A stretch of DNA of 36,770 nt from an uncultured Granulosicoccaceae bacterium (GTDB taxonomy: Bacteria; Pseudomonadota; Gammaproteobacteria; CALCKW01), in assembly GCA_937925815.1 (NCBI GenBank), contig CALAMQ010000146.1, positions 1 through 36,770 of the forward strand, given 5' to 3'. This document shows, piece by piece, positions 3,100 through 17,239 of the stretch. Each line of letters opens with the position of its first letter. The first letter of the stretch is position 1. The position numbers and the translations under genes were made by a program. A model generated the notes under the pieces. The model did not search any database, had not been told where the DNA came from, and worked only from the letters and a program-made list of their open reading frames with translations.

Positions 3100-3603
3100 A
3101 TGAGCCCGCGCACAGCGAAGATCCTATTGCTAGGAGCCCAAGGCGCTGGCAAAACGGCACTTGGGCGCCAGCTCAAGTACAAGCGTTTCTGGACCGAGCA
3201 GACAGAAAATGGCTTACCTTGGTATGACCTGACAGCTCTGGTTGACGGCCAAGCTTTTCCACTTGTGCTCTGGGACACCACAGCGGGACTGGACAATTCG
3301 CCCGAAGCCAAAGCATCGGTCCGTGGCGCAGATGCGGCACTGATCGTCGCCGACACCCAATGCCATTCTTCTGTGTCGCAAATGCTCGACACAGCGGCGG
3401 ACTTCAGAGATTTGCTCCCTGGCAGACCCGTTGCCTGCGTGCTGAATAAAATTGACGTGCAACCGCCGAGCGATTTACTCGTCAACAGCGCCAGCCGCCA
3501 CGCCGACTTTGTCACTTTCTGCAGTGCGCGAACCGGGCAAGGCACTGCCGCCACGCTGCAACGTATGGCCACAGCACTGCACAGGCGGAATACTTCGGCA
3601 TGA
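3100..3603 (+). CDS. Ras-like small GTPase, atypical switch II
   Basis: A 167-residue single-domain GTPase of the Ras superfamily. G1 is GAQGAGKT (12-19), G4 is NKID (116-119) and G5 is CSARTG (141-146). The G3 region reads WDTTAGLD (58-65): compared with the usual WDTAGQE it has one extra residue between Asp and Gly, and no catalytic Gln. The start at ATG 3100 has a good ribosome binding site (GGAGCG, 3089-3094). There is no membrane segment and no lipidation motif that I recognise. The stop overlaps the next gene's start by 4 bases (ATGA), so the two are translationally coupled, which suggests the GTPase works with that histidine kinase. Intrinsic hydrolysis may be slow, which is inference. 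MglA-type proteins are a possible relative, but the switch motif differs. Confidence 0.85.
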   Translation: MSPRTAKILLLGAQGAGKTALGRQLKYKRFWTEQTENGLPWYDLTALVDGQAFPLVLWDTTAGLDNSPEAKASVRGADAALIVADTQCHSSVSQMLDTAADFRDLLPGRPVACVLNKIDVQPPSDLLVNSASRHADFVTFCSARTGQGTAATLQRMATALHRRNTSA

Positions 3604-5081
3604 ACACAGCCCAGGCGTTCACGGACGAACGATGCACCAAGAGCGTTGCCTACGCTGACGCGACAGGCCGGGTGCTGTCTAAAGAAGGACCACACAGCCA
3701 TTGGTTGACGGTGGGTGAGCACTTGCTCGACAGCAACGTCGCGCTGATTGGGCAAGACGAAGCCTTTGACGCGCTCAAGCAAGACCCAAGCTCATTTTTC
3801 ACACTCACTGACATCAGCTTCAGTGCGCTTGACCAATCTCGTTTCTACACCATCACAGTCAAGTGGCTGCCAGAGCGGCAACACTTTCATGTTGAAACCA
3901 CCTCCCTCGAAGTTGCGCAAATCAATTCCTTTCGCGCAACACAACACGCTCGTGCGACCAACTACACCGCAGAGCAAGTCGCCCAAGAGCGCGAACATTT
4001 TCGCCACATCTACGAGCAGAGCCCGCAATTGGCCATCTGCATCGCGCGCGACGGGTCAGTGGTGGCAGCCTCTCACTTACTGCGAGACCGCTTCCTCACA
4101 CCTCGCTGCCAAGACTCAGAGACCGCACTGACGTCAGTATTGACGCGGGGAAAACTGTGGCAAGCGCTGTGGCAAGGCTCAGGATTAAGCGGCATGCCGA
4201 TCCGCGCGATCGACCACCACGGTCGCACCTGCGATCTGGAAGTGTCGGGGATAGCCGCGCAGCACCCAAGTGAACTGCGCGAAGAAGCCTATTTCACCTT
4301 GATGGACATCACTGAGCGCAACGCCTCTCGCATTGAATTGATGGACCGCAGTTTCGAGCTCGAGCAATTGAGTCAGAGACTCCAGGACTCAAATAAGAAA
4401 CTCGATCAATTCGCGTCCGTCGCAGCGCACGATTTGCTTGCACCACTGCGTCGCATTGCCGCCTTTGCCGATATGCTGCATGAAGAACTCGATGGCATCC
4501 AAGGTGACACCGTCACCTTTGCACTTGACGCCATAAGACGATCAGCGCACAACGGCCAGAAACTCGTCGACGACATTTTGCAGCTGTCGCGTCTGTCGAC
4601 CCTCGATGCCCGCATTGATGAAATCGCATTGAACGGTGTATTTGCCGAGGTCGCCAGTGAGTTCGACTACAAGCTCGCCGAGATCCAAGGTGAAGTTGAA
4701 TGCATCAGCGGGGACATCCCTGTTATTGGCGACACGCGGTTGGTCAAATTGATATTCAGAAATCTGATCAACAATGCCATCAAGTACCGCCAAAGCAACC
4801 GCAATTTACGCATCACGCTAAGTCAGTCCACCACAGGTGGCACGCCACACGCGCGCATCGAGTTGGCAGACAATGGCATAGGCATGGCACCCGAGGACGC
4901 ACAGACGGTGTTCGCGCCGTTTGTTCGCCTGTGCGAAAACAACCAAGTTCAAGGCCACGGCCTCGGGCTCGCAATAGTCCAGGAAGCGGCCATTGCCATG
5001 GGGTGGCATGTGTTTGCCCACGCGGAGCCCAAAAACGGCACGCGAATGGTTCTCACCGCCCCAACACCCAACCCACACTGA
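3600..5081 (+). CDS. Soluble PAS-domain sensor histidine kinase
   Basis: A 493-residue kinase with no predicted membrane segment. Residues 1-110 form an unrecognised, possibly PAS-like, sensor region. A PAS domain spans about 128-242, and a short coiled coil about 243-270. HisKA carries the phospho-acceptor His277 in AAHDLLAPLRRI. The HATPase domain has the N box around RNLINNAIKY (387-396), the G1 box DNGIGM (424-429) and the G2 box GHGLGL (452-457). The catalytic core resembles cytosolic kinases that work with separate receivers. Its ATG overlaps the stop of the small GTPase gene, and no receiver is fused to it. The convergent operon just beyond supplies a receiver-kinase and a free receiver, which are candidate partners. 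The input signal is unknown; regulation through the GTPase is inference. Confidence 0.92.
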   Translation: MNTAQAFTDERCTKSVAYADATGRVLSKEGPHSHWLTVGEHLLDSNVALIGQDEAFDALKQDPSSFFTLTDISFSALDQSRFYTITVKWLPERQHFHVETTSLEVAQINSFRATQHARATNYTAEQVAQEREHFRHIYEQSPQLAICIARDGSVVAASHLLRDRFLTPRCQDSETALTSVLTRGKLWQALWQGSGLSGMPIRAIDHHGRTCDLEVSGIAAQHPSELREEAYFTLMDITERNASRIELMDRSFELEQLSQRLQDSNKKLDQFASVAAHDLLAPLRRIAAFADMLHEELDGIQGDTVTFALDAIRRSAHNGQKLVDDILQLSRLSTLDARIDEIALNGVFAEVASEFDYKLAEIQGEVECISGDIPVIGDTRLVKLIFRNLINNAIKYRQSNRNLRITLSQSTTGGTPHARIELADNGIGMAPEDAQTVFAPFVRLCENNQVQGHGLGLAIVQEAAIAMGWHVFAHAEPKNGTRMVLTAPTPNPH

Positions 5082-5119: not shown

Positions 5120-5144
5120 AAAGGCTGCGCATTGCGCAGCCTTT
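5120..5144. terminator. Bidirectional intrinsic terminator
   Basis: AAAGGCTGCGC (5120-5130) pairs perfectly with GCGCAGCCTTT (5134-5144) around a 3-base loop. The 11-bp stem is GC-rich and flanked by an A-run on the left and a T-rich stretch on the right, so it can terminate transcription in both directions. It lies between the plus-strand kinase gene and the minus-strand receiver gene, both of which end here. Confidence 0.92.
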
Positions 5145-5167: not shown

Positions 5168-5533
5168 TCAGGCCGCTAGGGCGGTCTCGATGTTGTTGAC
5201 CAAGTCGCTCGCGAGAAACGGTTTCTCGAGAAAGCCTGTCGCGCCGACATCTGTCGCCTGCTTGCGCAATCCTTCTCGACGGCTGGCGGTAATGAACATA
5301 AACGGAATGTGGTTGGTCTCAGGAGACTGACGTATCCGGTCGGCCACTTGGAAACCGTTGCCCGCGGGCAAGTTGATATCGATGATCACCATATCCGGTT
5401 GCACATCGAGCACTTGACTCTGCGCAATAGCCGCGTCATAGGCAAATGCAACGCTGTACCCGAGTGCGCGCAAACGCGCGTTCAGCGCTTTTGCAATATT
5501 GCGGTCATCCTCAATCACAAGAATTTTCTTCAT
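5168..5533 (-). CDS. Single-domain response regulator (CheY-like receiver)
   Basis: A 121-residue stand-alone receiver domain. The acidic pocket is Asp9/Asp10, the phospho-acceptor is Asp52 (in IIDINLP), the switch residue is Thr82 (FITAS) and the conserved Lys104 sits in EKPF. It has no output domain, so it should act by protein contact or as a phosphorelay intermediate. I chose ATG 5533, which follows a G-rich ribosome binding site seven to thirteen bases upstream and gives the normal receiver N-terminus (MKKILVIEDD). Upstream in-frame codons would add an unconserved 12-residue tail. It is 32 bases downstream of the hybrid kinase and probably co-transcribed with it. Confidence 0.93.
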   Translation of the reverse strand: MKKILVIEDDRNIAKALNARLRALGYSVAFAYDAAIAQSQVLDVQPDMVIIDINLPAGNGFQVADRIRQSPETNHIPFMFITASRREGLRKQATDVGATGFLEKPFLASDLVNNIETALAA

Positions 5534-5565: not shown

Positions 5566-6780
5566 TCAAGCGGCTTGTCTTCCTTGACGATCCACTGGCA
5601 AGGTGAAAACAAATTCACTGCCAACACCCAACTCACTGGTGACGATTAGTTCGCCCCCGTGCTGCAAAATCAACTGCCGTGCAATTGAAAGTCCGAGACC
5701 AAGTCCAGACCTTGCTTGCAATTCATCACCGTCTCGCTTGACTTGATACAAGCGATCAAACACCAGCTTTTGATCGTCGGTCGATATACCGCGGCCAGTG
5801 TCTTTGACCGAGAACCTAAGGCATCTATCGGCTTCGCCGAGGCCAACTTCAATGACCACTGATCCACCCTGATCGGTGAACTTCACGGCGTTTGACACCA
5901 AAATGGTCAACACCTGCATCAAGCGGTGTTCATCGCAGTACGCAGCTGGCAATTGCGTAGTACATTTAACATCTATGTCGAGTCCCGCGCTGGCCGCACG
6001 GTTAGAGAATTGGCGTACGATTCGATCCACAGCGCTAGTGGCTGACACCGCCTGGCAGTCGAGCCTGAAGCTGCCGGTTTCCAGTGCCACTGAATCTGTC
6101 AGATCATTGAGATGACCACACAGCGTGTCGCAGCTCTCGAGCGCCGTGCCAAGAAATTCCGACTGTTCGTCGTTCAATTGACCGACCACACCCTCGTGCA
6201 CCATCGACACGAACTCACGCAACGCCGTTAGCGGAGACTTCAGCTCATGTGAGACGCTGTGGTAGAAGCTCTTGATCTCTTCGTTTTGTTTTTGCAGCTT
6301 CTGGTTTGCGGCTTCCAGATAGCGACGGTGCGACACCACTTTTTTGCGCAATCGACTTTTTTCGACCGCGTTGCTGATCGCACGTCCCAGCGAGTCAACC
6401 GAAACACTCGCTTTTTGCAAGTAGTCTTCAGCGCCGTGTTTCATCACTTCGGATGCGTTATCAACTGTGCCGTAACCGGTCAGGACCACAACCGCTGGGT
6501 GCATATCGGGATTGATCGAGACCATTTGGTCTAAGACTTCAAGCCCTGTGAAATTATCAAGGTGATAGTCAAGCAGAACGCAGTCGAATTTCTCGTTTCC
6601 GTACAGCGCCAAGCCTTCTTGCGCGGTACTTGCCTCGACGATATTGAATACCATCGTCTCGTGCATGGACAGGCAGCGCCTGTAAATTCGACGGTCCATT
6701 TCGTTGTCGTCGATCATCAGGACCTTGATGGTCATCAAGTCCAGAATATCGTCGACGAATTCGGGATCACGAGTCAGCAT
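5566..6780 (-). CDS. Receiver-histidine kinase hybrid (REC-HisKA-HATPase)
   Basis: From ATG 6780 the protein has 404 residues. An N-terminal receiver (about 16-135) carries phospho-acceptor Asp71 (LLDYHLD), Thr101 and Lys123. A coiled coil of about 30 residues follows. HisKA carries His178 in SHELKSPL, and HATPase has DTGRGIS and GLGLGLSIA. It has no membrane segment. A kinase with an N-terminal receiver is usually controlled by phosphorylation from another kinase, so it can sit in the middle of a relay. The convergent PAS kinase and the downstream free receiver are the obvious neighbours. The start could also be ATG 6735, immediately before the receiver; a longer form from 6858 is unlikely. 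The 283 bases upstream, to the helicase stop, hold no gene and no promoter I can defend. Confidence 0.92.
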   Translation of the reverse strand: MLTRDPEFVDDILDLMTIKVLMIDDNEMDRRIYRRCLSMHETMVFNIVEASTAQEGLALYGNEKFDCVLLDYHLDNFTGLEVLDQMVSINPDMHPAVVVLTGYGTVDNASEVMKHGAEDYLQKASVSVDSLGRAISNAVEKSRLRKKVVSHRRYLEAANQKLQKQNEEIKSFYHSVSHELKSPLTALREFVSMVHEGVVGQLNDEQSEFLGTALESCDTLCGHLNDLTDSVALETGSFRLDCQAVSATSAVDRIVRQFSNRAASAGLDIDVKCTTQLPAAYCDEHRLMQVLTILVSNAVKFTDQGGSVVIEVGLGEADRCLRFSVKDTGRGISTDDQKLVFDRLYQVKRDGDELQARSGLGLGLSIARQLILQHGGELIVTSELGVGSEFVFTLPVDRQGRQAA

Positions 6781-7063: not shown

Positions 7064-10000
7064 CTAGCTGATTGGCTGCAACAACTCGATAACTTGATCT
7101 TCAGTCAACTCCGTTGGCACTGCATCGCCCTGCTCGACCAGACCGCTCGCCAGTGCGCGCTTTCTCGCCTGGAGTTCCAGAATTTTCTCCTCGACCGTTG
7201 AAGCCGCAATCAATCTGTACACAAATACTGTCTGTGTTTGGCCGATCCGGTGGGCTCGGTCAATTGCCTGCTGCTCAGCAGCTGGATTCCACCACGGATC
7301 AAACAACACCACCGTGTCTGCGCGGGTCAAATTGAGGCCAACGCCACCGGCTTTGAGACTGATCAAGAACACGCCAACCTTGCCAGACTGGAACTGGTCG
7401 ATGACCTCCTCTCGACGACGACTGCGGCCAGTGAGCGACACAAAGGGGATGTCGCGCTCATTGAGCGAATCACCGATCAGGTCGAGCATGGTGGCAAATT
7501 GCGAGAACACCAACACGCTGCGATTTTCCGCCTGCAGCGTCTCGATGAGTTCAAGCAAGTGCTCGAGTTTTGCCGATCCTGCGGTCTCACGCTCACCGTA
7601 ACTCGGTGGCAAAAGCCTCGGATCACAGCAAGCTTGGCGTAGCTTGAGCAGGGCGTCGAGCACCATAATCTGACTGCCGGCGAGACCACGCGAGAACAAC
7701 GCATCGCGAACACGACTCTCCATCAATGCGCGCACGGACTCATAGAGGGCTTTTTGCGTCGGCGTGAGCTCCAGACGCTGCACCATTTCATTGCGGGCGG
7801 GCAGATCGCGCGCAACCACGTCTTTATTACGCCGCAGAATAAAAGGTGCAGTTCGGCGTCGCAGCCGGGTCAGTGCGGTGGCGTCGCTCTGTTTCTCGAT
7901 GGGGTCGCGAAACAAGCGCCTGAAGGTTTCACGGTCACCGAGAAAACCCGGCATCAGGAAGTCAAACAGCGCCCAGAGTTCACCTGTGTGGTTCTCAACC
8001 GGTGTGCCAGAGAGGCACAACTTGCGCTCGGAGCGAAGCTCCCGAACTGCGCGCGCAGTCTTGCTGCCCGGGTTCTTGACCCACTGTGCCTCGTCGAGCA
8101 CCAAAAGCGACCAAGGCTGATCGACAAGCGTTTCGACGTCGCGCTGGATAACGGCATAGCTCGCTATCGCAATGTCCGCATCGTCGAGTGCCGCGTAGTG
8201 CTCTCGACGGTCAGGGCCAGACAGCGAAATCACTTTCAGCATTGGCACAAAGGCCGCACACTCCCTAACCCAGTTGCCAACCACACTGGTGGGTGTCACC
8301 ACCAAGACCGGCGCCACCAGGCGGCCATCTCGCTTTTCATCGAGTATGTGCGCAAGGGTTTGCACGGTTTTGCCAAGACCCATGTCATCGGCGAGGATGC
8401 CCCCCATTCCGGAGACAGCCAAAAAGCGCAACCAACCCAGGCCTTCTTTTTGATACGGCCGCAGCTCTGCGGCGAAGCCTTCAGGCGCCTCGCGCGCATC
8501 GGAGAATTGGTGCGAACGCAGGCTGTCGGCCAGCTGTTGCAGCGCGGCAGGAGGCGACCAAGGGCGTGTCGGCAGTTCGTTGAGAACCGCGTCGAGTTGG
8601 GCAAAGCTCGCACGCGGCAGATTCATGCGCGTTTCGACGTCAGCCAGCACATCGGCGAGGTTCGCAACCAACGGACGCAACACACCAGCTGGTATGCGCA
8701 GTTCGCGTTGGTCAACCAACCCCAGTGATATCGGAGTGTCGTCAGCCAAATTGTCTATTGGATCCGTGCGCAACCCGTGTTGTTGCAGCCAGCGCGCGAG
8801 CAGCGGTAGCAATGGCACTGACTCACCGCCAACTTCAACATTCAACCCGACTGAAAACCAACCTGCGGCCTCACCTGCCTGTTGAAAATCAACTTGCAAA
8901 TCGACGATATCGTGACGTTCGAAACGCAACTCATCGGGTAACTCTATGCGCCAGCCCTGTTCAATCAACCGCGGCGCGGTGGCAGTGGCAAATTCAACCC
9001 AGCCCGGATGGTCGGCCCAAACCGGCAATTGCGCGTCGAGCGGCACGAAGGTCGCGGGCGCATCGAGCAGTTGCGATGAGTCATCCTCGAGCAGGTCCTG
9101 GGAGATGTCATCGTTGTCGTAGGTGCGCCCATCAAAGGCGAGCAGTGACAGATCTGTATTGTCGAGGAGATCGCGAACACGCGCGAGTTCAGCCGCCTGG
9201 TCACGCGCCTGCCAGCGGCGCTTGTCCGGGTCATAGCTGCGCTCTCGCCCCGCTTGCAGTGCAATCGTTCCAATCGGGTAATCGACCATGGCGTGCAGAG
9301 CATAGCCTCGGCCGGGTTCACTCTTGGCGATCAGCGCGCATTGTCCGATGCGCGCTGCGAGCGTCTCGGCGTTGCGCGCTTGCGCTGACAACGACAGCAC
9401 CATCTCATTGCGGCACACGTTGGGAATCCGCGCTTCAACTTCACGGCGCTGTTCGGCATCCAGCTGTGGCAACTGCATGAGTTCGAGCACTTGTTGATCA
9501 CTGAGATCGCTGCGCACAGCGCCAGTGCGTCCAGAGAGCCGGTCAACGTACCAAAAGCTGTTGTCACTTCGAACCAGGCGAAGCCGTTCTCCGAGCGGCA
9601 CACCACTCAACGTGAGTCCAAGTTTGCCACCCGATTCGCCAATCCAAGCAGGCTCGAGGTCGCAGACGCCTCCGTCAACTAACGGCTTGCCGGCCTCCCC
9701 GACTTCACCAATACCCAGCGCTAACAATCGTCGCAACACTGTCGAGACAAGCGGACTCGGCAAGCGGCAGTCGAGCTGGCGGCTGTTGTAGAGGCTGCCT
9801 TGCAAACTGATGAACAAGTCGAGCAATTGCAATTGGCTGTCAGGCAGGTCCACGTCAACCGGCCGAACCAACGCCAGGCGTTTGCCACGGCTCCAAGCAC
9901 CGCTTTGCAATCGGGTACAGACCCGGCCTGAGACCCGCAGCGCCACCACCGCGCTGCCTGGCTCCAGCGAAATCGCGAATTTCAAGGTCGCGCGGGCAGC

Positions 10001-10408
10001 GTCGGCGACGACGCTGCCGCTGCGGTCAATGCTGGACAACAACCCGACCACTTGCGCCACATCGCGGTCTTCGCGAGGACTGCTCTGAGTTTGCGCATCA
10101 AAGGCGCCATCGAGCACCATGTGGCCAAAAAAGGCCGCCGCAACATGCTTGCAGGGCATACCAGCTGCGCAATCGCAATGCGGTGTCACGCGGGTCAACC
10201 CCGCGGTGTCTTGCAGCAGCGTCAGGTGGACAGTGTGCGTCGCATCCCCGCGCACCGATGCATGAATCACCGCGTCGTCGTCGCTGTGCTCGAAGCGCAC
10301 GCGACCTTGTTCAAAGTACGCGATGCCCCGGCGCAACACCTGTGGATTGAATTCAAGACCCACTTCTGCCATGACGGAGAGGAGTGCGTCGATCTCTGCT
10401 TGCTGCAC
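7064..10408 (-). CDS. SNF2-family helicase with N-terminal SWIM zinc finger
   Basis: A large protein of about 1,114 residues. Near residues 78-88 is a SWIM zinc finger (CDC...CKH: Cys, Cys, Cys, His). A long middle region with little recognisable homology follows. The SNF2 ATPase starts at about residue 630: motif I in DDMGLGKT, motif II DEAQ, motif III SGTPVEN, and motif VI in the helicase C domain (AIDRAHRIGQTQ). Such proteins are ATP-driven DNA translocases that remodel protein-DNA complexes; the exact role of the bacterial SWIM-SNF2 type is poorly known. GTG 10408 is preferred because AGGG lies six bases before it, whereas TTG 10414 would abut that site. It begins only 31 bases after batD and may be the last gene of the Bat operon. 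The C-terminus is complete. Confidence 0.93.
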   Translation of the reverse strand: MQQAEIDALLSVMAEVGLEFNPQVLRRGIAYFEQGRVRFEHSDDDAVIHASVRGDATHTVHLTLLQDTAGLTRVTPHCDCAAGMPCKHVAAAFFGHMVLDGAFDAQTQSSPREDRDVAQVVGLLSSIDRSGSVVADAARATLKFAISLEPGSAVVALRVSGRVCTRLQSGAWSRGKRLALVRPVDVDLPDSQLQLLDLFISLQGSLYNSRQLDCRLPSPLVSTVLRRLLALGIGEVGEAGKPLVDGGVCDLEPAWIGESGGKLGLTLSGVPLGERLRLVRSDNSFWYVDRLSGRTGAVRSDLSDQQVLELMQLPQLDAEQRREVEARIPNVCRNEMVLSLSAQARNAETLAARIGQCALIAKSEPGRGYALHAMVDYPIGTIALQAGRERSYDPDKRRWQARDQAAELARVRDLLDNTDLSLLAFDGRTYDNDDISQDLLEDDSSQLLDAPATFVPLDAQLPVWADHPGWVEFATATAPRLIEQGWRIELPDELRFERHDIVDLQVDFQQAGEAAGWFSVGLNVEVGGESVPLLPLLARWLQQHGLRTDPIDNLADDTPISLGLVDQRELRIPAGVLRPLVANLADVLADVETRMNLPRASFAQLDAVLNELPTRPWSPPAALQQLADSLRSHQFSDAREAPEGFAAELRPYQKEGLGWLRFLAVSGMGGILADDMGLGKTVQTLAHILDEKRDGRLVAPVLVVTPTSVVGNWVRECAAFVPMLKVISLSGPDRREHYAALDDADIAIASYAVIQRDVETLVDQPWSLLVLDEAQWVKNPGSKTARAVRELRSERKLCLSGTPVENHTGELWALFDFLMPGFLGDRETFRRLFRDPIEKQSDATALTRLRRRTAPFILRRNKDVVARDLPARNEMVQRLELTPTQKALYESVRALMESRVRDALFSRGLAGSQIMVLDALLKLRQACCDPRLLPPSYGERETAGSAKLEHLLELIETLQAENRSVLVFSQFATMLDLIGDSLNERDIPFVSLTGRSRRREEVIDQFQSGKVGVFLISLKAGGVGLNLTRADTVVLFDPWWNPAAEQQAIDRAHRIGQTQTVFVYRLIAASTVEEKILELQARKRALASGLVEQGDAVPTELTEDQVIELLQPIS

Positions 10409-10439
10409 GGACAACCCTGATCGGGGTAAACCGTATAGT

Positions 10440-12209
10440 CTACTCGCTTTTTTTGCCCGCGATGTGGTCTAGGTGAGTCCACGCCGCACCGAGCGACGGC
10501 AGCGCGAGTTCTGGCCTGTCAAAGGTGCGCTGCAGCGGTCTCACAGTACGCAGTTGCGTCAACAAATCGTGGTCTTGCCAATCCGCGTCTGGCGCACCGT
10601 GCAAACTCGCATCGAACCGCACAACGCGCTCTGCGAGCTCGCCATAACGCGGGTCAAGGCGCAAACGCTCACTGATATCCAACAGGTGTCGAGGTGGTTC
10701 ATCCCAACACGCAGCCGCCCACTCGAGCAGTTGCCGTTGCACCGCCTCGCGGTCGCCAGCGCGCATTGCGCGCGCGCCGCGGCGCAATGCCGCGTTGGGA
10801 TGACGATGCAGTCGCTGCCGCAGCTTGGACACACCGGCCACGCCCATTGCCAACAGCAAGAGTACAACGCCACCCACGGTAAGTGCCGGCAGCGCCCGTT
10901 CGACCAACCTGCGCCAAGTTGCTATCAGCGTATCGTTGTCGCTCAGTGCGACATCATCACCTGTGGGCTCGACAGTTGGTTGCTCTGAAACCGATTCGGC
11001 GCGGGCTAAATCTGCCGAATCATCCGTCGTTGGTTCACGCCCATCCAACGAAGGCGTGACTGCGAGATCGCTCAAGGGAGCCGCTGCGATGTCGATTGAG
11101 TCAATCACCACTCGCTCGCGTTTGACGCTCTGCTCTGCGGTGCTGAACCACTCAATGTCGATTGGATCGAGCGTCAACTCACCCGCTCGCGTTGGCACAA
11201 CCTGGTGGCGCACCCGACGCTGGCTGACCAGTCCACTGTCGAGTACCCGCGAGCCCGTCTCTGACTGCCCAAGATAAAATCGTGCAGAACCCGTCTGCGC
11301 AGGCTCGATTGTTGGCAACTGAGCGGCTTGCGTGCCGTGCGCAGTGACAGTGAGTTCCAGTGTGATTGGGTCTCCAACCCGCGGCGTGCCTTCCACCAGC
11401 CAGTTTGCGGTCGCCACTAACGCTGTCGCCGGCAGCCACCAGCTGTCCCCTGAGGGCGCCGGTCTAACGTCGAGTTCAACCGCGGGTCCCCGAAGACGAA
11501 TTTGGCGGGTCTGGCGGTTGAAAAAAAAGCCTGACTCGCCGCCGTCAACTGCCACACGCGCACGCAGCCGAACCGCACTGAGACTGAACTGCCCACTGCG
11601 CTGCGGGAAGAGTGCATAACGGCGCTCGTGCACATCCCAATCCACGCCGTCGCGGTTCACCGTGTAACTGCGATCGGTGCCGAGCCGCTCCAGTGCGACG
11701 CCGTCGGCCTCGGGTTCAGTCAAACTGCCGTCAACCACCGGTGTGCGCTGAAAAATGCGCACTGTGTAAATAATCTGTTCCTGCACCAAAGGACTTCGGT
11801 TTGAGACCTCGGCCTCAATAAAATGCGTGCGAGCTGTGGGTTTCAGGTCTTCTGCCGGAATCACGTTTAAGGTCAATGGACCCGCACGCACACCTTCATA
11901 TTGCAAGACCGGGATGACAATCTCGCCGGTTCGCTCTGGTGCGAGCACCAACTTGAGTACCTGGCGGACACTGATCTGCCCGTTGACGATCTGGGTATGG
12001 TGATTGCGCGATTGACTGAGTATTTCAAAGTCTGTGCGCAAGCTGCTTAAATCGGGATCAAACTCGCTGTCACCGCTGTAGGTCACGGTGAGCTCGACCG
12101 TTTCATCAAAACCGATACGGTCTGAACTCAAGTGAACGTCAAGTTCCGCCGCCGCAAGGGCGGTGCTCACGAGCCACAAAAAGAGCATGGAAAGTACGCG
12201 CATCACCAT
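10440..12209 (-). CDS. batD: BatD-like membrane-anchored protein
   Basis: A 589-residue BatD/oxygen tolerance family protein. It starts with a signal peptide (hydrophobic core of about residues 5-18, cleavage likely after Ala-Ala). A long beta-rich periplasmic region follows, including FDETVELTVTYSG near the start. One membrane helix lies at about 455-475 (VGGVVLLLLAMGVAGV), then a basic cytoplasmic tail. BatD proteins act with the BatA/BatB von Willebrand proteins and a MoxR ATPase in envelope stress or oxygen tolerance; the exact biochemistry is unresolved. The first ATG (12209) is preceded by GGAA at good spacing, and a second in-frame ATG sits at 12203. Its start overlaps the stop of the TPR gene. 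Assignment rests on architecture and gene order as well as sequence. Confidence 0.88.
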   Translation of the reverse strand: MVMRVLSMLFLWLVSTALAAAELDVHLSSDRIGFDETVELTVTYSGDSEFDPDLSSLRTDFEILSQSRNHHTQIVNGQISVRQVLKLVLAPERTGEIVIPVLQYEGVRAGPLTLNVIPAEDLKPTARTHFIEAEVSNRSPLVQEQIIYTVRIFQRTPVVDGSLTEPEADGVALERLGTDRSYTVNRDGVDWDVHERRYALFPQRSGQFSLSAVRLRARVAVDGGESGFFFNRQTRQIRLRGPAVELDVRPAPSGDSWWLPATALVATANWLVEGTPRVGDPITLELTVTAHGTQAAQLPTIEPAQTGSARFYLGQSETGSRVLDSGLVSQRRVRHQVVPTRAGELTLDPIDIEWFSTAEQSVKRERVVIDSIDIAAAPLSDLAVTPSLDGREPTTDDSADLARAESVSEQPTVEPTGDDVALSDNDTLIATWRRLVERALPALTVGGVVLLLLAMGVAGVSKLRQRLHRHPNAALRRGARAMRAGDREAVQRQLLEWAAACWDEPPRHLLDISERLRLDPRYGELAERVVRFDASLHGAPDADWQDHDLLTQLRTVRPLQRTFDRPELALPSLGAAWTHLDHIAGKKSE

Positions 12210-12934
12210 GGTTGTTCCGCATCACCAGCGCCACCGTGGCGCCGTTCATGCTCGCGCACAATGCGCGCACGCAGTAATCCAGCGGGGTCATCTGGCACCC
12301 GATTGAGCAACTGCTCTGCCGCCTGCTGACTCTCGCGGCTCGCCTGTTGTTGCGGATCGGACTCGTCATCGTTGTTTTGCTCTGGCGTAGACGCCGCGCT
12401 CTCCTCGCGGCTAGCTTCGCTGTCGCCTTCTTCGCTGTCGCCTTCTTCGGAGTCGCTGGGTTCGGCCGCGCCCGCGTCCTGTTGATCGGCATCACCACCA
12501 CTATCGGATTGATCCGGCGGCTGCGAATCATCAGTTGACGATTGCTGTTCAGCTTCAGCCAAGGCCAACAACTTCTCTGCAATATCGCGATTGACCGCAT
12601 TCCCCTCTGGCGTTTCAGGCAAGGCAGCTGCGCGATCAAACGCGTCGATCGCTTTTTGGTAGGCCCCGCTTTCTGTCAACACCGTTCCAAGGTTGTATTC
12701 ACTGTGCGCATCCCCAATTTCAGACCACAACTTCATCGCGCCCGCTGTGTCCCCGGCGTCATAGAGCGCGCGTGCACGGTGTTGCGGCGAACGAAAATGA
12801 ATCGCGGCCTCTGCTGGCTTGCCCGCATCCATCAGCCGTTGACCCACTTGATCTGGACGGCTAAACGGCGCGGCGACCGCTTGGCCGCACAGCAATGCCC
12901 ACATCAGTAACAAAGCCATGCGCTTGCTCACCAT
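12203..12934 (-). CDS. TPR-repeat protein of the Bat operon (BatC-like)
   Basis: A 243-residue protein with a signal peptide (hydrophobic stretch about 6-20). TPR-like helical repeats cover about 30-130 (AEAAIHFRSPQHRARALYDA, then a classical repeat around YNLGTVLTESGAYQKAIDAF). An acidic Ser/Glu/Asp/Gln-rich disordered region covers about 130-215. A short C-terminal segment follows (LLNRVPDDPAGLLRARI) that resembles the end of BatB/BatC TPR domains. In many gammaproteobacteria this domain is fused to BatB; here it is a separate gene overlapping batB by 7 bases. ATG 12934 has a very good ribosome binding site (AGAGGG, five-base spacing); longer in-frame starts would run deep into batB. Probably a scaffold exposed to the periplasm. 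Confidence 0.88.
   Translation of the reverse strand: MVSKRMALLLMWALLCGQAVAAPFSRPDQVGQRLMDAGKPAEAAIHFRSPQHRARALYDAGDTAGAMKLWSEIGDAHSEYNLGTVLTESGAYQKAIDAFDRAAALPETPEGNAVNRDIAEKLLALAEAEQQSSTDDSQPPDQSDSGGDADQQDAGAAEPSDSEEGDSEEGDSEASREESAASTPEQNNDDESDPQQQASRESQQAAEQLLNRVPDDPAGLLRARIVREHERRHGGAGDAEQPW
12419..12448 (-). repeat. Two perfect 15-bp tandem copies in the acidic linker of the TPR gene
   Basis: GCTGTCGCCTTCTTC occurs at 12419-12433 and again at 12434-12448. On the coding strand it gives Glu-Glu-Gly-Asp-Ser twice. The repeat is in frame and lies in the disordered linker, so copy-number change would only alter linker length. Confidence 0.9.
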
Positions 12935-13905
12935 AGCAACCCTCTGCGACACAGCACCGCGAGCGGCAGTAACAGCGCCCACAACAACCATGCCCCGTCA
13001 TCGCGCCACAAAATAACCACGCCAGTGTCCTCACCGGGCGCCACCGCTGCGTCAGCATGTTGCAGGACCGACTCAACCGGCACAGCGCCGCTGGTGAGCG
13101 CAACAAATTCCCCCTGCCCCGAGCGTGCAAGCTCGCGCAGGCTTCGGTGCGCAGGTAGCGCCACCACGTCCTGGCCGGACCGGTCTTTCAACGTGCCCAG
13201 ACCGTGTGGCACAACCACCGCATCATCGCCACCCACGCTGACAGCGCTGGTACGCACACCACGGCGGGCCAGCGATTTGGCAAATGCAACCGCGCCTGGC
13301 GTTGGCTCGCTGTCGCTGATCAACACCAAATGCCCGTGTTTGACAAAAGCCTGCTCGAGAATGTCGGCACCGCGTTGAAGTGCCGCATGAATATCCGCGC
13401 CTTGCGCTGGCGCCATATTGGTTTGAATCGTCGGCGTGATCAGTTGCAATGTGCGAACGTCGTCGGTCAACGGCGCAAGCGTGTAGGGGTAAGCTGCAAA
13501 TCCAATCAGCGCTACTGCGCCTTGCTGCGACGCCGCCAACATATCGAGCAGTTTTAATCGTGCCTGCGTCATTCTGTCGGGACGCAAGTCTGTGGCGTCC
13601 ATTGAAAGCGACATATCGAGTAAAAAAACGCTCGCACCTCCATCGCGTTGAGTTGACACTTCGCTGCGTTGCCAGCTTGGCCCAGCCAACGCCAAAACAG
13701 CCAACACGGCCGCCAGCGCCAGGGCAGTCAGTGGCCAGCGGGTTGTGGCCGAGCGGCCAGCGAGCATGGCATCAAACAAGTGCGGGTCCACAGCCTGGCC
13801 CCAGCCCCCGTCACCACGTTGGCGACACCACAGCAGCCACAGCCAAAGCGCAGCCAGCGGCAATGCAAAAAACCAGAGCGGTCGAATAAAATGCAGGTGC
13901 TCCAC
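12928..13905 (-). CDS. batB: BatB-like von Willebrand factor A membrane protein
   Basis: A 325-residue protein: two N-terminal membrane helices (about 9-25 and 58-77), a vWA domain (about 88-285) and a C-terminal helix (about 304-320). The metal-ion site begins DMSLSMD (D-x-S-x-S), with the later Asp in LISDSEP. The usual Thr is not obvious, the equivalent stretch reading GADIHAAL. Gene order and topology place it as the second vWA protein of the Bat set, which is thought to form an inner-membrane complex worked on by MoxR. The GTG start (13905) is preceded by GGAGG at ideal spacing and overlaps the batA stop by one base. Confidence 0.92.
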   Translation of the reverse strand: MEHLHFIRPLWFFALPLAALWLWLLWCRQRGDGGWGQAVDPHLFDAMLAGRSATTRWPLTALALAAVLAVLALAGPSWQRSEVSTQRDGGASVFLLDMSLSMDATDLRPDRMTQARLKLLDMLAASQQGAVALIGFAAYPYTLAPLTDDVRTLQLITPTIQTNMAPAQGADIHAALQRGADILEQAFVKHGHLVLISDSEPTPGAVAFAKSLARRGVRTSAVSVGGDDAVVVPHGLGTLKDRSGQDVVALPAHRSLRELARSGQGEFVALTSGAVPVESVLQHADAAVAPGEDTGVVILWRDDGAWLLWALLLPLAVLCRRGLLW

Positions 13906-14858
13906 TAGGCCTCCATTCGCCGCAACCAGAGTGCGACGGTCATCAAGGCGAGTGCGAGTGCAAGCGGCAAGTGGTATAGCGCTTCGACAGGCCTGACCAA
14001 GGGCGCGTCTGCGTTGGCAGGTTCAAGTTCGTCGATGCGGCTGTAGACCGCCTCGAGATCGCTGGTGTCTGTCGCGCGGAAGTATCGGCCACCGGTCTGC
14101 TCGGCAATGGCCTGCAACGCAGCATCATCAACAGACGAACTGTTGAGCAGGCTGCTGAACAATTGGCGCTGTGTGCTGCCCACACCAATGGTGTGGACGC
14201 GCACGCCAAAACGCTTGGCCAGTTCAATTGCATCGCCAACGGAGAGTTCACCAGAGGTGTTGCTGCCATCGGTCAACAATACGATGACACGAGACTCCGC
14301 CGGGCGGTCTTTGAGTCGCTTGGTCGCAAGCCCAATGGCGTCGCCGATTGATGTTGAGCGCCCAGCGAGGCCTACTACTGCATCACGCAAGAACCAACTC
14401 ACGCTGTCGAGATCAAAAGTCAGCGGCACCTGTACGTATGCTCGCTCGGCAAACAAGATCAAGCCAACCCGGTCGCCGACCCGCCGCTCTGAGAAATCAC
14501 TGGCAACCTCCCTGACAGCGGCAATGCGACTCATTCGACGTCCGGCCCAGACAAAATCACGCTCTTCCATGCTGCCCGATATGTCCAACGCCATGACCAA
14601 GTCGCGCCCCGTCTGAGGCAACGCCAATGTGTCACCAGTGCGCTGTGGCTGCGTGAGCGCGAGCACAAACGCGAACCAAGCCAGGCCAAGGCACAGTGCT
14701 GCTAGTCGCCCGCGCACCAGCGCTCTCGCGCCGGGGTAGTGTTCGACCCGCGACACCCGAAGCGCAACCCCGTCGCCACGAGAGGCTGGCAATACCGCGC
14801 GCCACAGCCAAGGCAGTGGCAACACAAGTGCGGCCCACGGCAACGCCACCTCAAGCAC
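13905..14858 (-). CDS. batA: BatA-like von Willebrand factor A membrane protein
   Basis: A 317-residue membrane protein with two N-terminal hydrophobic segments and one C-terminal helix flanking a vWA domain. The metal-ion-dependent adhesion site looks intact: DISGSM, a Thr in STSIGDAIG, and Asp in LLTDGSN. It is the first vWA protein of the MoxR-Bat operon, expected at the inner membrane with the vWA domain in the periplasm. GTG 14858 has GAGGA eight bases before it and overlaps the stop of the DUF4381 gene by 8 bases. An upstream ATG at 14957 would add a 33-residue hydrophilic extension inside that gene and is unlikely. Confidence 0.93.
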   Translation of the reverse strand: MLEVALPWAALVLPLPWLWRAVLPASRGDGVALRVSRVEHYPGARALVRGRLAALCLGLAWFAFVLALTQPQRTGDTLALPQTGRDLVMALDISGSMEERDFVWAGRRMSRIAAVREVASDFSERRVGDRVGLILFAERAYVQVPLTFDLDSVSWFLRDAVVGLAGRSTSIGDAIGLATKRLKDRPAESRVIVLLTDGSNTSGELSVGDAIELAKRFGVRVHTIGVGSTQRQLFSSLLNSSSVDDAALQAIAEQTGGRYFRATDTSDLEAVYSRIDELEPANADAPLVRPVEALYHLPLALALALMTVALWLRRMEA

Positions 14859-15372
14859 GCTGGGATTCCTCAATCGGCACTTGACGCTGGGGATCTGCGC
14901 AACGGTTGAGCAATTGTTTGGACAGAGCCAGAGTCCGTTGTAATTGCGTCTGCTCAACCGCTACTTTGCGGTAGGGCGCATCCTTTAAGCAGCGTCCTGC
15001 ACCGGCGCTGAACTCAGTGGTACCGCCGAGACGGTCGAGCATGCCCAACCAAGCGTCACCGTGGAGCCTTGCTACACCCCCACGCGGGTGTTGAAGCAGT
15101 GCTACCTGACGCAACAGCACAGACAAATCACAGAGCAACGCATGCGACTCGGGTTCACTGCAGGATGCGGCGCGCCGTTCAAGTTGGTTGAGTCTGGCCG
15201 TCGCCGTCTGACGCCAACGTCGACGAGCCCGCCGGGCCCTGAGCAATCGGTAGATTGTTGTGGCCGCGGCTATCAACACAATCCCAGTCAGCCACCAACC
15301 CCACGCCAGCGGCCACCAACTGATTGTGCTTGGCGACTCAAGCGCGTGCAACGATGCGATCAGGGCCTGCAT
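14851..15372 (-). CDS. DUF4381 membrane protein of the Bat operon
   Basis: About 173 residues. A Trp-rich stretch (SWWPLAWGWW) leads into a single membrane helix (about 24-44), followed by a strongly basic segment (LLRARRARRRWRQ) and a cytoplasmic helical domain. This is typical of DUF4381, a family found almost only between DUF58 and BatA genes, with unknown molecular role. The start is uncertain. ATG 15372 is given, but TTG 15390 would overlap the DUF58 stop as TTGA, has a G-rich site upstream, and places Asn-Pro near the N-terminus as in relatives. Confidence 0.85.
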   Translation of the reverse strand: MQALIASLHALESPSTISWWPLAWGWWLTGIVLIAAATTIYRLLRARRARRRWRQTATARLNQLERRAASCSEPESHALLCDLSVLLRQVALLQHPRGGVARLHGDAWLGMLDRLGGTTEFSAGAGRCLKDAPYRKVAVEQTQLQRTLALSKQLLNRCADPQRQVPIEESQRA

Positions 15373-15386
15373 ATCTTCTGTAGGGT

Positions 15387-16277
15387 TCAACGCAGCCCCC
15401 TGGCCGCCAGTGCGCGCTGCAGGGCCAGACCCTCGCCGTCCACCGTCGAAATCTGGCAATAATGCTGCCCCGGTCGCCCGAGCGAGACACGCAGTTGATC
15501 TGCGCGCGCGCGGTACCGGGCTGCATGCGCCGCACGATCGCGCGCACGACTCGACAAGCGGCGCTGAGACAGGTGATCTCGAATCCAGCCAACCCGCTTT
15601 GGCAACTCGATATCCAGTGGATCAGTGACGTGCCAACACACACCGTTGAGGCGCTTGAGCTCGGGCGCTGCCACACTGTCGTCACTGAAATCGCTGATCA
15701 CGTGCCACTCGGCCTTGGCAAACTGTCCAGACGCGATACCGTCCATCGCCTCGGCCAAGCTCGGCGCCCCAGAGTCGCTCGGTGCCGCTGCGTGGTGTCG
15801 GACCAATGTGTGGCACAGACGCCGCACGGCGCGTTCTTGGGCGCTGTCGCTGACGCGCTCTATTCCGAGGTCTGACACAACCCAGGCACCGACCCTGTCG
15901 CCAGCTGAGTGCGCTTGCCACCCGAGCGCCGCCGCCAACCTAGCCGCCAGCACTGACTTCAAACACACGCGAGTGCCAAAGTGCATGCAACTGCGCACAT
16001 CGACCAACAGGTACACGGCGCTAGCGCGCTCATCCTCGTAGACTTTAACGTGGGTCGCGCCACGGCGAGCGGTGACTTTCCAATCGATAGAGCGCACGTC
16101 GTCGCCGGCCTGGTATTGGCGTATCTCGGCGATATCAAGACCGCGCGACACCTTTTGGCTAGCGACTTGCCCATCAATATCCGCCGTTGGCTGGGTGGGC
16201 AAGGACCTGCGTCGACGCGATGTTCTGAGCGCGAGCAATTCAGTCAAGCTCAGGTCCACGCCGGGCCGATGGCTCAC
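15387..16277 (-). CDS. DUF58 (vWA-like) protein partner of MoxR
   Basis: A 296-residue soluble protein with the DUF58 signature around residues 53-70 (RQYQAGDDVRSIDWKVTARR). A vWA-like fold follows, without a full metal-binding motif: LLVDVRSCM replaces D-x-S-x-S, so metal binding may be lost or altered. DUF58 proteins accompany MoxR ATPases and are proposed substrates or adaptors. GTG 16277 overlaps the moxR stop by 4 bases (GTGA), consistent with translational coupling and co-regulation. Confidence 0.92.
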   Translation of the reverse strand: MSHRPGVDLSLTELLALRTSRRRRSLPTQPTADIDGQVASQKVSRGLDIAEIRQYQAGDDVRSIDWKVTARRGATHVKVYEDERASAVYLLVDVRSCMHFGTRVCLKSVLAARLAAALGWQAHSAGDRVGAWVVSDLGIERVSDSAQERAVRRLCHTLVRHHAAAPSDSGAPSLAEAMDGIASGQFAKAEWHVISDFSDDSVAAPELKRLNGVCWHVTDPLDIELPKRVGWIRDHLSQRRLSSRARDRAAHAARYRARADQLRVSLGRPGQHYCQISTVDGEGLALQRALAARGLR

Positions 16278-17239
16278 GGCACGGCCACCTGATCCAAGAT
16301 GGCATCGACAACGCGGTCAACATTCAAGCCCGCATCTTCTGCTTCAAACTCGAGCACCAACCGGTGTCGGAACACGTTGTGGACCACCGCCTGCACGTCA
16401 GCAGGCGAGACATAGTCCCGCCCGGCCAACCACGCACTCGCCCGGCTTGCAATATCAAGCGCCAAAGTTGCGCGCGGACTACAACCGTAGGCAAGCGAAC
16501 TCGCTGCCTCACCTTCGCGGGTGGCAACAACTAACGACACCATGTACCGCTTGAGGTTTTTTGACAGCGTTAAGTGCAAGACCTCGGAGCGAGCTTCATC
16601 GAGGGCGGCGAGTGAGACCATTGGCGCCGCTTGCGCCTGGGCGGGTTGCCCGAGCAAATCGCCACGTTCTTCTGCCCGCACGAGATCGAGAATGTGCAAC
16701 TCATTTTCTGCCGATGGGTAGTCGACTGGCACGTGCAGCAAAAAACGATCGAGTTGCGCCTCGGGCAGCGCATAGGTACCCGCCTGCTCAAGAGGGTTGC
16801 GAGTCGCCATCACCATAAACGGTGTCGGCAATCGGTACGTCACATCGCCAACCGAAATCTCGCTTTCTGACATGGCTTCAAGCAACGCCGATTGCACCTT
16901 GGCAGGCGCGCGATTGATTTCGTCTGCGAGCACTAAATTATGGAAAAGCGGCCCAGCCTTGAACTCAAAACTGCCGGTCTGGTTGCGGTAAATTTCTGTG
17001 CCCGTGAGGTCGGCTGGCAATAAATCAGGTGTGAACTGAATGCGTTGGAAGTCGCCTTCCAAGACATCGGCCAGAACACGGATCGCTCGTGTCTTGGCCA
17101 GACCCGGCACCCCTTCGACCAGTAAGTGTCCGCGCGACAGCAAGGCGATCAGCAAACAATCTACCAGTGCGTCCTGGCCGATAATACGGTGGCCAAGATA
17201 GCCTCTGAGCTCAGTGAAAAGCGCGTGCGTGTTGGTCAC
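16274..17239 (-). CDS. MoxR-family AAA+ ATPase
   Basis: A 321-residue AAA+ ATPase of the MoxR group. It has Walker A GVPGLAKT (43-50), Walker B LADEINRAP (104-112), a sensor 1 region in MATRNPLEQAG, and the lid domain in the C-terminal third. MoxR ATPases act as chaperones that mature or remodel partner complexes through vWA proteins; here the partners would be the products of the next six genes. It is the first gene of the minus-strand operon. The GTG start at 17239 has GGAAG about eight bases upstream. Control probably comes from the divergent intergenic region 17240-17471. Confidence 0.94.
   Translation of the reverse strand: MTNTHALFTELRGYLGHRIIGQDALVDCLLIALLSRGHLLVEGVPGLAKTRAIRVLADVLEGDFQRIQFTPDLLPADLTGTEIYRNQTGSFEFKAGPLFHNLVLADEINRAPAKVQSALLEAMSESEISVGDVTYRLPTPFMVMATRNPLEQAGTYALPEAQLDRFLLHVPVDYPSAENELHILDLVRAEERGDLLGQPAQAQAAPMVSLAALDEARSEVLHLTLSKNLKRYMVSLVVATREGEAASSLAYGCSPRATLALDIASRASAWLAGRDYVSPADVQAVVHNVFRHRLVLEFEAEDAGLNVDRVVDAILDQVAVP

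Follow-up and report, generated by a model that had tools for sequence, protein, structure and literature searches.

The GTPase–kinase pair and its surroundings

The window, which is the whole stretch of 36,770 nucleotides analyzed here from an uncultured Granulosicoccaceae bacterium, carries a Ras-like GTPase gene that runs directly into a histidine kinase gene, with two further signaling genes facing the pair. The features are:

3100..3603, plus strand: Rup-type small GTPase, 167 aa (open reading frame, Pfam Ras, alignment, AF2 model)
3600..5081, plus strand: soluble histidine kinase, 493 aa (open reading frame, Pfam, AF2 model)
3600..3603, plus strand: ATGA stop/start overlap of the GTPase and kinase genes
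3600..3989, plus strand: N-terminal region of the kinase, residues 1–130, putative GTPase-binding module (profile search)
5120..5144, no strand: perfect 11-pair hairpin separating the pair from the receiver genes that converge on it
5171..5533, minus strand: single-domain receiver, 121 aa, candidate phosphate acceptor, beside the pair also in G001 and G003
5569..6780, minus strand: receiver-HisKA-HATPase hybrid kinase, 404 aa, beside the pair also in G001 and G003

The initial annotation had read the first two genes as a Ras-like GTPase coupled through an ATGA junction to a soluble histidine kinase, and this reading stands: the frames start with ATG at 3100 and at 3600, the former closing with TGA at 3601–3603 and the latter with its stop at 5081, and their products match Pfam Ras on the one hand and HisKA and HATPase_c on the other. 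Neither product displays a membrane-helix-like stretch in a Kyte-Doolittle scan, so the kinase is soluble by this test. Also as annotated, nothing lies between the two genes, which overlap directly; what that account missed is the receiver and receiver-kinase genes, both on the minus strand, which converge toward the pair and are conserved alongside it. The hairpin at 5120–5144 looks like a two-way terminator. No OmpA-type gene is found at the locus, the upstream position being that of recQ, which ends 186 bases before the GTPase start, and no roadblock/MglB gene is present among the neighbors of the pair. Adjoining the receiver-kinase, in G001 as in the window, is a gene for a large SNF2-type helicase (7064–10414, minus strand) with a SWIM-like zinc motif recognized by eye. 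The minus-strand row at 10440–17239, again judged by eye, apparently codes for a MoxR ATPase, a DUF58-like protein, two von Willebrand-type proteins, and TPR and BatD-like proteins, and resembles an ordinary MoxR/Bat cluster.

The kinase has both the HisKA phospho-acceptor and the HATPase_c boxes that define a two-component histidine kinase: the match to HisKA (1.2e-10) contains the acceptor His277, and that to HATPase_c (7.9e-22) displays N, G1 and G2 boxes of the form NLINNAIKYR, DNGIGM and GHGLGLAI. Ahead of these lie a PAS-like N-terminal domain (residues ~12–104), a helical linker (105–139) and a second PAS-like domain (~140–236). The N-terminal domain is termed PAS-like from the order of elements in its AF2 model (two strands, two helices, three strands and a long helix), as Pfam and PDB profile searches with this region returned no family and no match; a Foldseek search with the whole kinase model recovered PAS/LOV-kinases and kinase cores, a result that does not decide how the N-terminal domain folds.

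Rup modules and a second copy in the same genome

The pair has its closest parallels in the Group 1 Rup systems, whose GTPases are reportedly very similar to eukaryotic Ras/Rab/Rho proteins, lack the G3 glutamine, and are encoded together with a coiled-coil protein, a membrane protein in which an inner-membrane helix is often followed by an OmpA domain, and an output protein; the latter is a c-di-GMP enzyme or a histidine kinase, with an N-terminal region featuring an invariant glutamine (Wuichet & Sogaard-Andersen 2014, PMC4316618). As Group 1 Rup–histidine kinase pairs were thus described in 2014 (PMC4316618), the proposal of the initial annotation that the pair represents an undescribed system has to be given up. 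We found no experiments on any Rup system in the literature searched.

In common with Group 1 Rups, the window GTPase is of Ras type, with Pfam matches to Ras (3.5e-9) and Roc, best PDB profile matches to Rab23, Rab6 and Sec4, and a confident Ras fold in its AF2 model; its 167 aa fall within the 150–240 aa criterion, it is devoid of the G3 glutamine and of a roadblock/MglB companion, and it adjoins a signal-output protein with a dedicated N-terminal region, histidine kinases being among the outputs reported (PMC4316618). Unlike them, the locus consists of two genes only, with neither an OmpA-type nor a coiled-coil protein, and the GTPase is missing both the switch I motif and the DxxG glycine. 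The putative trans-acting glutamine differs too: the linker glutamine is present in 24/24 aligned output proteins outside the histidine kinase clade, but it varies in the window-type kinases (Q, R, R), with Gln115 of the window kinase at a similar place in the linker and an arginine in the G001 and G003 orthologs, in a part where the alignment is uncertain and one alignment run misplaced the glutamine, so that its equivalence in kinase-type outputs depends on the alignment. Given the loss of switch I and the DxxG glycine, we regard the window pair as a derived offshoot rather than a canonical Group 1 Rup system.

A GTPase match (E<=1e-10) was obtained in 51 of the 399 genomes sampled across the phylum. 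Coiled-coil and OmpA-type genes recur in these neighborhoods, and the outputs comprise GGDEF-EAL proteins, HD-GYP-like HD proteins, HisKA and HisKA_3 kinases, hybrid kinase-receivers and class III nucleotide cyclases; gene fusions of the GTPase were not seen in this sample, every GTPase reading frame being shorter than 270 aa. The fourth gene commonly codes for a class III adenylate/guanylate cyclase (loci L062, L063, L064, L067, L068, L076 and L078–L085; Pfam Guanylate_cyc confirmed in two of the Rup-locus cyclases, the others recognized by similar sequence), and HD-GYP-type HD-domain proteins occur at Rup loci L022, L065 and L077; neither enzyme class is named in the text of the 2014 Rup paper (PMC4316618). 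At L056 (5179–7288), genes for a Rup-partner kinase and, behind it, a receiver protein converge with the OmpA-type and GTPase genes, making this locus a candidate for the complete phosphorelay of a Rup module.

The genome from which the window derives (G000) codes for a second GTPase–kinase copy on contig C82. Here, the GTPase gene is preceded, with a -4 overlap, by that of a 604-aa protein, which is of the expected size and predicted to cross the membrane once; it has no Pfam OmpA match of its own, but its counterparts elsewhere do, and this OmpA-type membrane protein is a further trait that the C82 paralog shares with Group 1 Rup systems. The C82 GTPase keeps the Ras-like G1–G5 motifs, and the -4 overlap of GTPase and kinase is common to the window pair, the C82 paralog and the G001 ortholog. 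This more complete copy went unseen in the initial annotation, as did the broken switch motifs of the window GTPase.

Both the window-type and the C82-type loci occur in two of three congeners (G001 and G003); the third, G002, is uninformative because its genome is 79% complete and this recQ is missing too. The order recQ, GTPase, kinase and facing receiver and receiver-kinase is preserved in G000, G001 and G003, the receiver-kinase being 81% identical to the window copy in G001 and 62% in G003. Conserved adjacency of the two families had been put forward in the initial annotation as the check on the pairing, and it is borne out: throughout the genus, 6/6 kinases with this N-terminal region lie directly behind a GTPase gene and 6/6 GTPases directly before such a kinase, an adjacency that is hence beyond chance. 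A functional link of the two proteins is likewise supported. These six are also all the full-length relatives of the kinase in the genus, the remaining matches covering no more than the kinase core or slightly beyond it. A separate coiled-coil gene was not found in this genus, and a contig scan with a narrow pattern returned two loci, both in a single sister genome.

In the GTPase tree, the six genus GTPases form one clade (97/96) within a 12-row clade (100/100) that stands apart from those Rups that have cyclases, GGDEF-EAL or HD-GYP proteins as partners. In G003, the syntenic GTPase has intact switches and is placed with the C82 type (92/85) rather than with the window copy, perhaps through long-branch effects; its orthology to the window GTPase rests on synteny, as the tree does not group the two. 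The N-terminal domain of the kinase follows the same 12-member clade: a profile of it matched 6 of the 399 phylum genomes, all of which hold a GTPase of this clade, though five of the six had supplied the training sequences of the profile. The exception is G239, in which a kinase that is of HisKA_3 type by sequence and bears the N-terminal domain lies ~2.8 Mb from the GTPase on one contig (L112, G239:C6 at ~2.85 Mb and G239:C6:80706), a co-occurrence without adjacency. The same N-terminal module is therefore joined to both HisKA and HisKA_3 dimerization domains, which singles it out as the invariable part of these kinases and presumably the one that reads the GTPase; we infer that residues 1–130 of the window kinase constitute a GTPase-binding module.

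Switch loss and shifted constraint

Among 38 aligned Rup GTPases, the switch I motif and the G3 glycine are gone only in the window GTPase and its G001 ortholog; the other 36/36 keep both. In place of DxxG, the G3 box reads DTTA in the window and DTTP in the ortholog, and the G3 glutamine is absent from all 38, the window copy included. A 32-row alignment, scored at columns conserved in >=85% of the other 30 rows, shows that V16, S20, Y33, V39, Y73, R88 and F153 are likewise broken in the two, and that K7, G12, G17, K18, T19, D59, N116, K117, D119, S142, A143 and G146 are kept. The P-loop (GAQGAGKT, G1), NKID (G4) and CSA (G5) motifs are intact in the window protein, both GTPases retain the nucleotide pocket, and a threonine adjoining the usual switch I position in the window GTPase might still contact Mg2+. 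The loss of motifs for switching or hydrolysis in both genomes, together with a confidently modeled Ras fold, is as expected of a pseudoGTPase; this degenerate form is known from these two genomes only (G000 and G001).

Several observations indicate how constraint has shifted. The window and G001 GTPases share a stem of 2.21 changes per site, followed by branches of only 0.16 and 0.13, a burst and then constraint. In a comparison of hand-set regions (n=10; p-values uncorrected), switch II is identical at 11/19 positions between the window GTPase and its G001 ortholog versus 19/19 in the intact paralog pair (p=0.003), the stretch from alpha4 to G5 (residues 120–146) at 26/27 versus 15/27 in the paralogs (p=0.001), and the kinase linker (105–139) at 34% versus 71% in the intact paralog pair (p=0.004). 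The N-terminal domain of the kinase is 49% identical versus 66% in the intact paralog pair. Codons of the two GTPases differ by 83 synonymous versus 40 amino-acid-changing substitutions, with dS saturated between the genomes, and neither gene contains a stop or frameshift. Outside the lost switch motifs, the window GTPase is maintained under strong selection.

A possible nucleotide-insensitive kinase adaptor

By descent the window pair is a duplicated and reduced Group 1 Rup module, and we consider it somewhat probable that its GTPase serves as a nucleotide-locked or nucleotide-insensitive adaptor of the kinase. The computations show this descent together with conserved adjacency, co-occurrence, motif loss and shifted constraint, and it is from these that physical binding, the loss of switching, the surface used and the phosphate path are inferred. 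In the parent module, as represented by C82, the one-pass OmpA-type membrane protein would act as an envelope sensor and determine the state of the Rup GTPase; by docking on the N-terminal domain and linker of the cytoplasmic output protein, which in this case is a histidine kinase, the GTPase would then alter how active that protein is. The window copy is without the membrane protein, and its GTPase has lost those parts that read GTP versus GDP; the GTPase would stay bound to the kinase as a pseudoGTPase-like adaptor, through a surface of which the conserved alpha4-to-G5 stretch would form part. For its signal, the kinase itself would rely on its own PAS-like domains, and it would hand on phosphate to the neighboring receiver, to the receiver-kinase, or to both. 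Given the drift of its N-terminal domain, the window kinase might conceivably have lost its specific contact with the GTPase.

Among the alternatives, the one with the most in its favor, though we deem it unlikely, is that the window GTPase still switches by an unusual Mg2+/gamma-phosphate arrangement, with its GTP/GDP state gating the kinase. Its intact nucleotide-base and P-loop residues, its confidently modeled fold and the threonine near switch I are all compatible with this, and catalysis could be supplied in trans, since the G3 glutamine is already missing in all Group 1 Rups (PMC4316618). It has to contend, however, with the replacement of the DxxG glycine, invariant in 36 others, by alanine in the window and proline in the ortholog, with a drift of switch II that the intact paralogs do not show, and with the missing OmpA-type regulator. 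Nucleotide gating, as suggested in the initial annotation, is hence plausible for the parent module but disfavored for the window copy with its lost switch I and DxxG glycine; as the window GTPase is most likely pseudoGTPase-like, such gating probably fits the C82 pair better.

The signal could also flow in reverse, with the kinase or its phosphorelay controlling the GTPase as the output, in the manner of the conservons of Actinomycetota (AGPS). These conservons (CvnA–D) likewise combine a histidine kinase and a small GTPase in one operon, with a signal thought to run from kinase to GTPase; indeed, in Cvn8, the kinase CvnA8 has been placed upstream of the GTPase CvnD8 (PMC13343842). However, the enzyme encoded by the fourth Rup gene is interchangeable (class III cyclase, HD-GYP, GGDEF-EAL, histidine kinase or kinase-receiver hybrid), while the GTPase and the OmpA-type protein ahead of it vary less, which puts the enzyme at the output end; moreover, a roadblock gene is missing from the window locus, and an effector would find no switches to read in the window GTPase, making this direction of flow quite improbable. 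Membership in the conservons proper was rejected: they possess an MglA-family GTPase, a roadblock protein (CvnB) and CvnC, whereas the window pair overlaps directly, with neither a roadblock nor a CvnC gene beside it. The MglA/MglB polarity systems similarly tie a bacterial small GTPase to two-component proteins, but the window pair is without an MglB/roadblock neighbor and its GTPase is Rab/Ras-like on PDB profile matches.

That the GTPase is a decaying relic, with only the kinase mattering and the overlap merely preserving its translation, might be read from the lost switch motifs, the absent OmpA-type gene and the weaker conservation of the kinase N-terminal region and linker relative to the intact paralog. 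We hold this to be very improbable: between G000 and G001 the GTPase is 76% identical, as against 59% for its kinase and a slightly lower 74% for recQ, which is not the behavior of a decaying gene, and at saturated synonymous sites it has acquired no stop or frameshift. A pseudogene or assembly error is dismissed by the same motif losses in two separate genomes and the excess of synonymous codon changes.

The adaptor reading has a eukaryotic parallel in pseudoGTPases, which, in the accounts given of p190RhoGAP domains (PMC5593906) and degenerate septins (PMC10731463), keep the fold, lose nucleotide-handling motifs and serve as protein–protein interaction parts; they differ in their separate origin, the window GTPase being free-standing, bacterial and paired with a histidine kinase. 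We tentatively advance, as a possibility that falls somewhat short of being probable, that a bacterial pseudoGTPase, having lost switching and its membrane regulator after duplication of a Rup module, has become a standing subunit of a histidine kinase, which it would control allosterically through its alpha4-to-G5 face without a GTP cycle.

What is new here is a stripped, degenerate Rup copy from which the OmpA-type protein is absent and in which the GTPase switches are lost, yet the gene is kept. With an intact and a switch-degenerate Rup–kinase pair in one cell, a ready comparison is at hand that bears both on whether the N-terminal domain of the kinase reads the nucleotide state of the GTPase, and on whether a Ras fold can control a histidine kinase without a nucleotide state.
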